Of a DNA stretch of 47,889 nucleotides, positions 8,298 to 45,306 are shown in pieces. Made by a program: the position numbers and the translations under genes. The notes beneath the pieces were generated by a model that was not told the origin of the DNA, ran no database searches, and worked only from the letters and a program-made list of their open reading frames with translations. The stretch spans positions 1 to 47,889 of the forward strand of contig JAUMXK010000009.1 of NCBI GenBank assembly GCA_030535295.1, read 5' to 3'. The number at the start of each line of letters is the position of its first letter. Within the stretch, counting starts at the first letter, position 1. The DNA is from Eubacteriales bacterium (GTDB lineage: Bacteria > Bacillota > Clostridia > Lachnospirales > Vallitaleaceae).

Positions 8298-8317
8298 AAA
8301 AAGAGTGGAAATTTACC

Positions 8318-8420
8318 TTTTCTCATCCAGACTATACTGTCGGTATTGGAATTGCACCAATTCAGCTTGCGCTCGCGGACTTTACCGCCGATCGGGAATT
8401 ACACCCTGCCCCAAAGATAT
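8318..8420 (-). ncRNA. FMN riboswitch (RFN element)
   Basis: The minus strand reads as a near-consensus FMN aptamer. It has GGGGCAGGGTG, AATTCCCGATCGGCGGTAAA and TCCGCGAGCGC, a variable arm GAATTGGTGCAATTCC, then ACCGACAGTATAGTC and GGATGAGAAAAG. All conserved joining segments of the six-stem aptamer are present. Binding of FMN normally switches off riboflavin uptake or synthesis genes; here the target is ribU and, probably, the gene behind it. Confidence 0.96.
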
Positions 8421-8460
8421 TCTCATGCAATATTCTGTTAAAAATAATACTAATACAAGT

Positions 8461-38675: not shown

Positions 38676-38755
38676 GCGGACGTGGCGGAATCGGCAGACG
38701 CACTAGACTCAAAATCTAGCGGGAAACCATGTGGGTTCGACTCCCACCGTCCGCA
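38676..38755 (+). tRNA. tRNA-Leu (anticodon CAA)
   Basis: Acceptor stem GCGGACG (38676-38682) / CGTCCGC (38748-38754) with discriminator A. D-arm GCG-GAATCGGCAGA-CGC as in leucine tRNAs. Anticodon stem CTAGA / TCTAG with loop CTCAAAA, giving anticodon CAA. A class II variable arm CGGGAAACCAT is present but short, and the T-arm is GTGGGTTCGACTCCCAC. The CCA end is not encoded. Confidence 0.95.
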
Positions 38756-41567: not shown

Positions 41568-42065
41568 ATGATTTTTTTAGAAACGAATCGTTTGGTGCTG
41601 CGAAATCTTGAGGAAAAAGATATTGATATCATGTTTGATTATCGTAACAATGAACTTTGTGCTCGCTATCAAAGAGGGCAAACAAAAGAGAGAGAAGGAC
41701 TGGAAAAACTTGTTGCCGAAAGAAAGAACGGAAAAATCTCCTTAGATGATTCCTTTATTCTGGCAATTGCTTTAAAAGAAAGCGATGAAATGATAGGAGA
41801 GGTTGTGGTGATGCCAAAGGATAAAACGATTTCTATGGGATATACCATTTCTTACTTACATCATAGAAAAGGCTATGCCTATGAAATGCTCTCGGCGTTG
41901 ATAGATTTATTGCATGTGAATTTTCCATGTCAGGAATTCATTTGTTTTGTTGAACCGGAAAATACAGCCAGTATCAACTTGTTGAAAAAACTTGGCTATG
42001 AGGACATGGGCTATATAGAGAAGATTCAATCACAGATGTATGGGAAGTTTAATTCTAACACTTGA
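41568..42065 (+). CDS. GNAT-family N-acetyltransferase (RimJ/RimL-like)
   Basis: A 165-residue acetyltransferase using acetyl-CoA. The start FLETNRLVLRNLEEKDIDIMFDYRN is typical of the RimJ/RimL branch. The acetyl-CoA site is in SYLHHRKGYAYEML (about 104-117), followed by FVEPENTASINLLKKLGYEDMG. The substrate is unknown. AGGAGGG stands before the ATG. It lies just behind the pnp terminator without a clear promoter of its own and opens the accessory-looking end of the window. Confidence 0.85.
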   Translation: MIFLETNRLVLRNLEEKDIDIMFDYRNNELCARYQRGQTKEREGLEKLVAERKNGKISLDDSFILAIALKESDEMIGEVVVMPKDKTISMGYTISYLHHRKGYAYEMLSALIDLLHVNFPCQEFICFVEPENTASINLLKKLGYEDMGYIEKIQSQMYGKFNSNT

Positions 42066-42092
42066 ATACATTCCCAAAAAGTACTATATTTT

Positions 42093-42122
42093 TTGTCGAA
42101 CTTGTACTTTTTATGATATAAT
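42093..42122 (+). promoter_or_regulatory. Promoter of the three-way-junction element
   Basis: TTGTCG (42093-42098), 18-base spacer, TATAAT (42117-42122) with TGA as an extended -10. Initiation would fall just at the outer stem of the structured element. Confidence 0.5.
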
Positions 42123-42127
42123 ATCCG

Positions 42128-42265
42128 CGAAAAAAGCACGAATACGTTGGACGAGCACAAAGAAATGATATGAGTACATAGAGATTTCTTTGTGCGAAGT
42201 ACGACATATGTGAGCCCTCGCGACCAAAAATTACGGAGTAATTTTTGGCTCATTCGGTGCTTTTT
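42128..42265 (+). ncRNA. Candidate structured RNA or miniature mobile element
   Basis: No ORF of note. The outer stem AAAAAGCACGAAT (42131-42143) pairs with ATTCGGTGCTTTTT (42252-42265) with one bulged G. Inside are a perfect 12-bp hairpin GCACAAAGAAAT (42155-42166) / ATTTCTTTGTGC (42184-42195) and a second arm. That arm is either CCAAAAATTAC (42224-42234) / GTAATTTTTGG (42238-42248) or TGAGCC (42211-42216) / GGCTCA (42247-42252) enclosing a shorter version. With a promoter in front and a T-run at the end of the outer stem it would make a transcript of about 140 nt. I do not recognise the family. Confidence 0.5.
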
Positions 42266-42275
42266 ATGATATAAT
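42245..42275 (+). promoter_or_regulatory. Candidate promoter of the ABC exporter operon
   Basis: TTGGCT, 19-base spacer, TATAAT (42270-42275) with extended TGA. It is formed by the second direct repeat and would produce a leader of roughly 105 nt before the 42389 start. Confidence 0.4.
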
Positions 42276-42388
42276 AAATTGGTTAAACAAATTATGACGA
42301 TAATTATAAGCTGTTTTGATCTGGATGAGGAAAAACTAATTTATATTTTTAAAAATACAGGGTAGTTTTATAAATGGGAGGAATTCAG

Positions 42389-43141
42389 ATGAGGTTGATT
42401 GTAAATTCCATGAGAAGACAAAGTTTGACCACAATTGGTACAACGATTTTTTATGTTGGGGTATTATTGCTTTTAATTACAATAACAAATTCCAATAGTA
42501 TGATATATTATAAAATTAGTCCATATACTTATGCTTCAGAGATAGTAGATTTCTTTTTTGCTCTGATTGTCAGTATTCCTTTTTCCTATTATACTTTTTT
42601 TATGAAAAAAGATAGATTTTTAGATTATGTGTCATTACGAATGTCAAAGAAAAGATATATTTTTTCTCATTTTGCCGCTACAATGTTCATGTGTTTTTTT
42701 ATGATATTTTTTGTAAATATGATCGGAGTGATTTTCTCATGTAGCATAGCAAGTATTACTATATCAGCCAATGCCCCTACACTCAAGGATTATATACTTG
42801 GACAATTGCAGATGAGTAATCCTCTGATATTTGGCATTATATGGTCATTTCAAAAAGCGTTAATCGGCAGTGCGATATGTTTATTTGCTCAAATAACAGC
42901 ATTATATGTTGAAAATTTGTTTTTAGCTTTATGCCTTCCCTTTGTATATGTTTTGTTAGAAAATTTTTTTACGTCAATTTTAAGTTTATCCCAATTTAGT
43001 TTAACTACAACATTTATATTAAATCGTTTAAAACCATCAGCAATGAGTATGGGAAATATCGTAATATCTGTTGCTATTTTTTTGTTTATAACCCTGATTA
43101 TATTTTTTTCCCTGAGAGGTTACTATGGAAGAAAAAAATAA
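42389..43141 (+). CDS. ABC-2-like exporter permease, first subunit
   Basis: A 250-residue membrane protein with about six hydrophobic segments, starting MRLIVNSMRRQSLTTIGTTIF, as in lantibiotic-immunity or ABC-2 type permeases. No conserved catalytic motif is expected. GGGAGG at 42376-42381 is 7 bases before the ATG at 42389; the ATG at 42374 overlaps this site. It overlaps the next gene by 17 bases, and the ATPase follows, so the three form one transporter. The base composition is visibly more AT-rich than in the housekeeping genes upstream, which hints at horizontal origin. Substrate unknown. Confidence 0.7.
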   Translation: MRLIVNSMRRQSLTTIGTTIFYVGVLLLLITITNSNSMIYYKISPYTYASEIVDFFFALIVSIPFSYYTFFMKKDRFLDYVSLRMSKKRYIFSHFAATMFMCFFMIFFVNMIGVIFSCSIASITISANAPTLKDYILGQLQMSNPLIFGIIWSFQKALIGSAICLFAQITALYVENLFLALCLPFVYVLLENFFTSILSLSQFSLTTTFILNRLKPSAMSMGNIVISVAIFLFITLIIFFSLRGYYGRKK

Positions 43142-44642
43142 AAAATACATTTATCTATTATTTAAAGAAAATAAGGTATTGTTATTTATTAATTTCTGTA
43201 TTCTCTGTTTTTTTAGTTTCTATGAACTTGAAGGATATCACAATATTGGAATTAGCACCATACATTTTATAATAATGATTTTAACCAACCATTATTATGT
43301 TCTATACTTTATGTTGCCTATTGTATTTATTATAATAGGCAAGAACTTGAAGAATAGTAGAACCATAGAAATTATCAGGCATAAAAACTATTATCACTAT
43401 ACCTATGAAATGATGTTGCGACTTGTTTCATGGATTTTTTCATATTTAGTATTTCATGTCATATCCTTGATAATTATTGGAAGTATAATATTAAGAAATC
43501 AGATGGAATCATTATTAAATTTAGCTTTACCGGATGAACAAATAATCCTTTTAAATCAATATTCTTCTTATTTTCATAATCCCATTATTGCTACTACTGT
43601 GATTATTATTTATATGATATTCGGATTTTCAGTGCTCGTAGCACTACTTTCCCATATCAATAATAAATATGGCTACAAGAAGATGGTATTAGCCGCTGTA
43701 ATTGTTTATATGATGACATTTATTGGTTTTAAAACACAGATAAAGACACTCATTCCGTTTATCTGCTTTAATAATTATATATTACTTCACCATAGTTTAT
43801 TTGTAAATGGAAGTGCGAGTTTTATAGGATTACTTTTAAGTGGTGTTGTGATACTAGGATTTTGTTTGGGTAAAATAAAAATAATAAATAAGATTAATTT
43901 TGGAACGTTTGTTCTTTCGCCAAAAGAAAAAATTATTTCAATACTGTTTCCGGTGGTATTATTGTCGATTGAAAGTTTAAAAGGTCTTGTTGAATTTGAT
44001 TTTAATTTAAGAAATGTGATAATAACAACTTTTCTTGGGGTTAGTCAATATTCTTCCACTTTTATTTCGTGGATAAAATTAACTAGTTTATATATGATTC
44101 CCTTGTTTTTCATTGGAGTTTCAAGCAGTCGAATAAAAACATTTGCTCAGGCACCGATTGTTATTCGCTATAAAAATAAGTATGATTTTGAATATAGAAT
44201 AACAATGGAATATTTCAAATACATTATTCTTTATACGTTTGTATTAGTTGTTATTGGAAATATGCTTTATTCCTTAGAACCAGCTTTGTTTCAGTCAAAA
44301 GACTATTTATTTGAGATGTTTCAAGTAGAATTTACTAGTAAGATTTTGAATATTTATTTTATAGTTTTTTTTGTGAATTTACTTTTCGATTTTGTTTTTT
44401 TTATGACTATTTCTAAGTACTTAAGTAATGTTGCAGCAACAGTACTTATCTTGGTTTTTAAGTTTATTTTTTACTTATTGCCAAAAATAAATTATTTGTA
44501 TTTAAATTTTGGAATTTTGAATTTATATGAAAAAATTGAGTTCGCACAACACTTGCTACTCAAATTATTTATTATGCTTGTAGGAATCGTTGGATATTTT
44601 GGTGTAATGATCATCAGGAGGTATAAGTATGTCAATAATTGA
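43125..44642 (+). CDS. Exporter permease, second subunit
   Basis: A 505-residue membrane protein with about 12 hydrophobic segments and little else conserved that I recognise. The middle (about 260-300) holds a cytoplasmic-looking loop beginning LSPKEKIISILFP. GAGAGG precedes the ATG, which lies inside the end of the previous permease gene; its own end overlaps the ATPase gene by 14 bases. Such tight overlap suggests assembly into one complex. It is strongly AT-rich, with many AUA and UUA codons. I infer a permease from context and hydrophobicity. Confidence 0.65.
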   Translation: MEEKNKKYIYLLFKENKVLLFINFCILCFFSFYELEGYHNIGISTIHFIIMILTNHYYVLYFMLPIVFIIIGKNLKNSRTIEIIRHKNYYHYTYEMMLRLVSWIFSYLVFHVISLIIIGSIILRNQMESLLNLALPDEQIILLNQYSSYFHNPIIATTVIIIYMIFGFSVLVALLSHINNKYGYKKMVLAAVIVYMMTFIGFKTQIKTLIPFICFNNYILLHHSLFVNGSASFIGLLLSGVVILGFCLGKIKIINKINFGTFVLSPKEKIISILFPVVLLSIESLKGLVEFDFNLRNVIITTFLGVSQYSSTFISWIKLTSLYMIPLFFIGVSSSRIKTFAQAPIVIRYKNKYDFEYRITMEYFKYIILYTFVLVVIGNMLYSLEPALFQSKDYLFEMFQVEFTSKILNIYFIVFFVNLLFDFVFFMTISKYLSNVAATVLILVFKFIFYLLPKINYLYLNFGILNLYEKIEFAQHLLLKLFIMLVGIVGYFGVMIIRRYKYVNN

Positions 44643-45306
44643 ACTTAAAAGCATCAGCAAAAAATTCAAACAAAATATTTTGTTTGATAGGGCTTCGCTC
44701 ACTATATATGAAGGAAAGATGGTGGGAATTGTAGGCGGAAACGGAGCAGGCAAAAGTGTTTTGTTTAAGCTAATTACCGGATTAGAATATGTTGATGAAG
44801 GCGAAATTTATGTTCGTGGTAAAAAAGTAGGTAAAAACTTTAATTTTCCTGAAAATGTAGGTTTGTTTGTTAACCAACCAGGATATATTGATTTTTATGA
44901 TGGATTTACAAATCTGAAGTTATTAGCAGACATACAATCTAAAATAAATGAAAAGGATATAAAAGATTGTATGAGGAAAGTTGGATTAAATCCTGAAGAT
45001 AAAACAAAAGTAAAAAATTATTCTGCCGGCATGAAACAAAAATTAGGAATTGCACAAGCGATCATGGAAAATCAAAATATTGTTTTGTTGGATGAACCTT
45101 TTAATGCTCTTGATTTTCAAACTAACATGGACATGCTGTCTATATTATCAAATTTAAAACAAGAAAGAAAAACTGTCTTACTCACATCCCATCAACACGA
45201 ATATTTAGAAAAGGTATGTGATGAACTCTATATTATTCTTAATAAAAAAATAGTCTTATTTGACAATGAGCTAAAGAAAGCTTACTTCTCGATATTTGAC
45301 AAGTAG
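44629..45306 (+). CDS. ABC transporter ATP-binding protein
   Basis: A 225-residue nucleotide-binding subunit. Walker A GGNGAGKS (36-43), Q-loop region FVNQPGY (80-86), signature YSAGMKQ (131-137), Walker B IVLLDEP (151-157, E156), D-loop NALD and switch His188 in TSHQH are all present. The protein should be active and power the two permeases encoded in front. It belongs to the drug/lantibiotic-type exporters with short ATPase subunits. AGGAGG stands before the ATG. A gap of 80 bases without a clear terminator separates it from the broken EFR1 gene. Confidence 0.9.
   Translation: MSIIELKSISKKFKQNILFDRASLTIYEGKMVGIVGGNGAGKSVLFKLITGLEYVDEGEIYVRGKKVGKNFNFPENVGLFVNQPGYIDFYDGFTNLKLLADIQSKINEKDIKDCMRKVGLNPEDKTKVKNYSAGMKQKLGIAQAIMENQNIVLLDEPFNALDFQTNMDMLSILSNLKQERKTVLLTSHQHEYLEKVCDELYIILNKKIVLFDNELKKAYFSIFDK

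Follow-up and report, generated by a model that had tools for sequence, protein, structure and literature searches.

The BOX elements of Streptococcus pneumoniae are interspersed, modular and highly structured repeats that are sometimes transcribed, lie near genes and have been proposed to be parasitic (PMC3049150). MITEs and Correia elements are short, AT-rich and repeated, and can supply promoters (PMC3049150). In 2010, Clostridiales-1 (RF01699) was included among candidate RNAs with no cis-regulatory role (PMC2864571).

We analysed an element in a gene-free gap of a clostridial contig; below, "the window" is the whole stretch of DNA that was analysed (47,889 nucleotides). The family to which the element belongs appears to behave like BOX, a likeness by analogy only: BOX is composed of boxA, boxB and boxC and has inverted ends that link it to an IS, whereas the window element combines a conserved promoter sequence with a predicted four-way junction. 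With MITEs and Correia elements the family has in common that it is short, AT-rich, repeated and a putative source of promoters. Like MITEs, it is present in multiple dispersed copies, but it differs from them in its flanks, where the repeat is not a target-site duplication but a family-wide sequence marking the boundary of tandem units. We consider it likely that the element belongs, as one unit, to a dispersed, often tandem family of structured-RNA repeats, and that it forms a transcription cassette restarting transcription into exporter genes.

Layout of the unit in the window

A scan of the window with the family covariance model R2 (described below) gave only one strong match, the whole unit at 42110-42276 on the plus strand (154.4 bits, E 2.1e-33). 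The unit is bordered by near-identical 20-base flanks, GTACTTTTTATGATATAATA (42104-42123) and GTGCTTTTTATGATATAATA (42257-42276). Repeat comparison bore out the identical 17-mers with a period of 153 given in the preliminary description: the inner 17 bases of the flanks (42107-42123 and 42260-42276) are the same, and the left copy, CTTTTTATGATATAATA, would form the boundary with a previous unit. Folding z-scores were -4.9 (42100-42285) and -6.4 (141-nt core), and 0/200 shuffles folded as well.

In the predicted RNA, an outer stem of 13 pairs (P1) is formed by AAAAAGCACGAAT at 42131-42143 and a 3' strand at 42253-42265, which ends in T5 and resembles a terminator. Inside it lie an arm (P2, 42155-42195) with a perfect 12-bp helix (42155-42166 with 42184-42195), a small hairpin (P3, 42210-42221) within a conserved AUAUGAG..CGA segment, and a terminal hairpin of 11 pairs (P4, 42224-42248; CCAAAAATTAC-GGA-GTAATTTTTGG). 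The P2 loop is GAGTAC in the window copy and UG-CUUG-CA in many other copies. The 13-bp outer stem, the T-run that follows it, the perfect 12-bp arm and a second hairpin had all been described before, as a three-way junction. These parts stand, but with the third, small hairpin the RNA is, as modelled, better described as a four-way junction made of an outer stem, an arm that is often CUUG-capped, a small hairpin and a terminal hairpin. A competing pairing had also been noticed. CGCGA at the 5' end (42126-42130) can pair with TCGCG on the 3' side of P3 (42218-42222), as an alternative to P3 or as a pseudoknot; in 26 copies 74.6% of the cells of this pairing are paired, and 9 are double-changed versus 4.9+-1.5 in shuffles (4/500 shuffles), which is no more than suggestive.

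A candidate promoter for this RNA lies at 42093-42122 on the plus strand (TTGTCG, an 18-nt spacer and the extended -10 box TG-A-TATAAT; 10/12 match in a simple scan), and would place the transcript start near 42127-42130. Because the same scan found promoter-like sites to be about as numerous as in shuffles, the case for this promoter rests on conservation: the -10 box recurs at the same position in copies from three species and is found at both ends of copies. The second putative promoter is formed by the 3' end of the unit (42246-42276, plus strand) and consists of TTGGCT, an 18-nt spacer and the extended -10 box TGATATAAT, which directly follows T5 of the outer stem; it is conserved in 14 aligned copies. 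Downstream on the same strand are genes at 42374-43141 and 43125-44642 (neither protein with a family match) and 44629-45306 (ABC ATPase). An own promoter ahead of the element and a second -10 box serving the exporter genes had both been proposed; the first agrees with the -35 match and the conserved -10 sequence, and the second box, present and conserved, probably does drive these genes.

The terminator-like end is less conventional. A simple scan of the element for a short-loop terminator found none; the candidate is the outer stem, which is long and leads into T5. Such a long-range stem is unlike a classical hairpin, and this counts against the cassette model. Several copies in multi-unit leaders are without the T-run or the 3' promoter, so that terminator-promoter action would not be universal.

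Elsewhere in the window, an FMN riboswitch (RF00050, 113.6 bits) lies at 8311-8422 on the minus strand and a tRNA gene at 38676-38755 on the plus strand.

Copies of the unit and conservation of its fold

A BLASTN-type search gave 7 matches in the host genome, and about ten BLASTN-level copies were present in Clostridiales bacterium COT-073, of the same genus. A covariance model built from eight full copies (R1) had matches in all three genus genomes, one of them missed by BLASTN. The model R2, built from 26 matches, found 13, 34 and 22 copies in the three genomes, grouped into 11, 26 and 16 clusters, and none in the other 18 genomes of the same family that were searched. Several clusters consist of two or three tandem units. 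Other members of the order carry one or two R2-type copies each, built on the same plan, although R2 includes promoter positions and so favours, among matches there, those copies that have a -10 box. In G122, two R2-type copies (L124 and L130) have an outer stem that is perfectly paired over a very long stretch, and the position normally taken by the -10 box is without one; they are possibly another branch. A single gene in G001 (L014, C81 17068-18511) lies between family units of opposite orientation. The plasmid and phage collections contained no DNA similar to the element, and the exact core pattern was not found in viral contigs; on these grounds we rejected plasmid or phage cargo as an origin.

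In the 26-row alignment of the copies, 88.7% of cells are paired, 36/42 pairs have changes on both sides and 246 cells are double-changed (shuffles give 80±8, slid controls no more than 55), numbers that are inflated because the alignment was fitted to R1, a model already holding the structure. The first MAFFT alignment, which was not structure-fitted, showed double changes in 16/37 predicted pairs. Helix by helix, compensatory changes were seen in 11/14 pairs of P1, in 17/17 pairs of the arm (helices 2-4) and in 8/11 pairs of P4, where 98.9% of cells are paired; P3 is paired in 83.3% of cells and covaries little. The P4 stem sequence is replaced altogether between branches (CCAAAAATTAC, ATCGAAAAATG, GAGAAAATCC). 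Structure is conserved across the repeat family and sequence is not, save for a near-invariant AUAUGAG..CGA segment and, outside the window copy's own branch, a near-invariant CUUG loop. G-U pairs outnumber A-C mismatches on this strand (44 vs 22), an excess that favours RNA read from this strand rather than DNA and that is likewise inflated by the structure-fitted alignment.

Had there been neither a second copy nor a covarying homologue, the element could have been put down to palindromes arising by chance in AT-rich DNA between genes. Three species carry homologous copies in which compensatory changes are seen; this contradicts such an account, and we reject chance palindromes as virtually impossible.

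Tandem boundaries, gene context and rival explanations

The element had been suggested, as one of two possibilities, to be a mobile insertion that duplicated 17 bases of its target. We found that in tandem copies the T-run and -10 box at the 3' end of one unit are the 5' flank of the next, and that across the whole family copies have a TTTATGATATAATA-like sequence at their borders. The 40 nt upstream of the window copy align to the 3' ends of other copies with a score of 27 (shuffled mean 12.6, 0/300 as high), and local alignment places what look like decayed remains of the previous unit's 3' end (CCCAAAAAGTAC..TATATTTTTTG..ACTTGTAC) at 42073-42106 on the plus strand, upstream of the left promoter. 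Such a remnant of the previous unit's 3' end is found in 10/14 canonical copies at p<0.05, the window copy included. Judged by these comparisons, the 17-mers are the putative terminator-promoter junction that adjoining units of a tandem repeat share. We therefore rejected target-site duplication, which is not needed where the flanks are unit boundaries with unit remnants upstream. An 81% relative of the upstream GNAT gene is present in G001, where the element is absent and the next gene is another one; searches for the downstream gene found it in neither G001 nor G002, and neither genome supplied an exact empty site. The GNAT relative is followed in G001 by a different palindromic tandem repeat (L101, GATTTGAAGCGCGCAAGCATAAATG..) with a unit of about 200 nt.

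The nearest downstream reading frame is co-directional in 44/50 clusters, mostly within about 150 nt, and the nearest upstream one in 30/50, with reading frames taken by a simple longest-ORF rule, so that single cases may be wrong. One G001 exception to the downstream orientation actually precedes a tRNA gene. The genes downstream of copies are functionally diverse. Between genomes, flanking genes look orthologous in just two cases, a pair downstream (a patatin-like protein) and a pair upstream, which indicates that copies turn over and that branches are lineage-specific. Since few insertion positions appear to be shared between species, the family disperses like an interspersed repeat. The dispersal through the genome proposed earlier is upheld.

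The preferred cassette model would work as follows. The RNA would begin immediately downstream of the left TATAAT and, about 140 nt long, would fold as a four-way junction of P1, a CUUG-type P2, P3 and P4. Transcription would then stop at the T-run after P1, and the fresh extended -10 box of the next unit boundary would restart it into the ABC-exporter genes from 42374. The start, the stop at the outer stem and the restart are made probable by the large majority of clusters that point at the nearest downstream reading frame. Copies would spread as non-autonomous repeats and work like pneumococcal BOX elements.

Lineage-specific, dispersed amplification with few shared positions could also reflect a miniature mobile element that acts as DNA, its folds recognised by a transposase or recombinase, its transcription incidental and its 17-mers an attachment or target sequence. 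The left and right flanks of one copy are indeed more alike than flanks taken from different copies in a genome (0/5000 permutations), a likeness that is expected from local tandem duplication, and several G001 copies sit at contig ends, as is typical for near-identical repeats. We nevertheless regard a DNA-level element as unlikely: the flank sequence is family-wide and the upstream remnants account for the direct repeats, which are then boundaries between tandem units; G-U pairs exceed A-C mismatches on one strand; the CUUG loop and -10 box recur together with the fold; and no larger element with matching ends came to notice. The orientation bias of the clusters would in turn suit units that serve as 5' untranslated regions, in which the fold controls the downstream gene by read-through and not by termination. 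Some arrays (G002 319677-320089 and 2112179-2112630, and one on contig C33 of G000) end in a truncated unit beside the ribosome-binding site of a gene, with no 3' promoter, and units in such clusters would form part of the mRNA leader. Against a cis-acting leader stand the diversity of the downstream genes and, in the window copy, the T-run and fresh promoter that lie between the RNA and the genes, and we find it improbable.

A small RNA acting in trans, as one gene of a family with a shared protein or target, would explain why the unit has its own putative promoter and a terminator-like end, and why the AUAUGAG..CGA core and CUUG loop are kept while arm sequences vary. The copy number, the decayed copies and the turnover of positions would be unusual for a conserved regulator, however, and the arm sequences have no obvious target-binding segment in common; we consider this quite unlikely. 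That Clostridiales-1 and a promoter-bearing relative reach at least 10 copies per genome, in tandem, at few shared positions and aimed at genes, shifts the question from the targets of a small RNA to how a structured RNA repeat spreads and what it does to neighbouring genes.

Relation to Clostridiales-1

The window copy matched no family in Rfam. A search of 42000-42400 with RF01699 at E<=10 gave no match, let alone one at the 48-bit membership score, and assignment to a known Rfam family, RF01699 included, was thereby rejected. RF01699, the closest RNA so far described, was found in neither G000 nor G001; G002, G026, G038 and many genomes of the order hold it in multiple, tandem copies, with at least 13 copies in several of them and 163 first-look candidates in G122.

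By inspection, Clostridiales-1 and the genus family are alike in having an outer stem, a long arm with a UGCUUGCA loop, an AUGAG..CGAA(U) segment and a further 3' hairpin. Clostridiales-1 has about 166 model positions, is multicopy and often tandem, and occurs in the same order, even in G002. The window copy departs from the shared architecture: its arm is capped by GAGTAC and not by a CUUG loop, and its core has diverged. Moreover, a -10 box is fixed at the unit boundary of the genus family, whereas the 22 RF01699 copies that we inspected have no such fixed box, promoters upstream of them showing no enrichment (3/22, background 12%).

Scores with the two kinds of model overlap at a few loci. 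A copy in G026, from another family of the order (L026), scored 29-33 bits with R1/R2 (R2 33.4) and 31.0 bits with RF01699; the RF01699 locus L076 scored 47.7 bits with RF01699 and 29.1 bits with R1; and L123 scored 27.7 bits with RF01699. Most RF01699 loci have no score in R2. Co-occurrence of R2-type copies and RF01699 was striking in the first 41 genomes and weak in 196; outside the genus, 3/10 genomes with R2 matches also have RF01699. Taken together, these comparisons suggest that the window family, which is small and well defined, is probably a sister branch of Clostridiales-1, forming a new subfamily and not a member of it.

We are doubtful of the wider proposal that Clostridiales-1 and the window family belong, as branches, to a single large class of dispersed RNA-coding repeats that rely on the RNA fold for their spread and carry promoters to adjoining genes. 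If it were true, such repeats would rewire expression across many clostridial genomes. In G002, 1032209-1032955 is occupied by a tandem array of five Clostridiales-1 units, each about 145-150 nt long (L088-L091).
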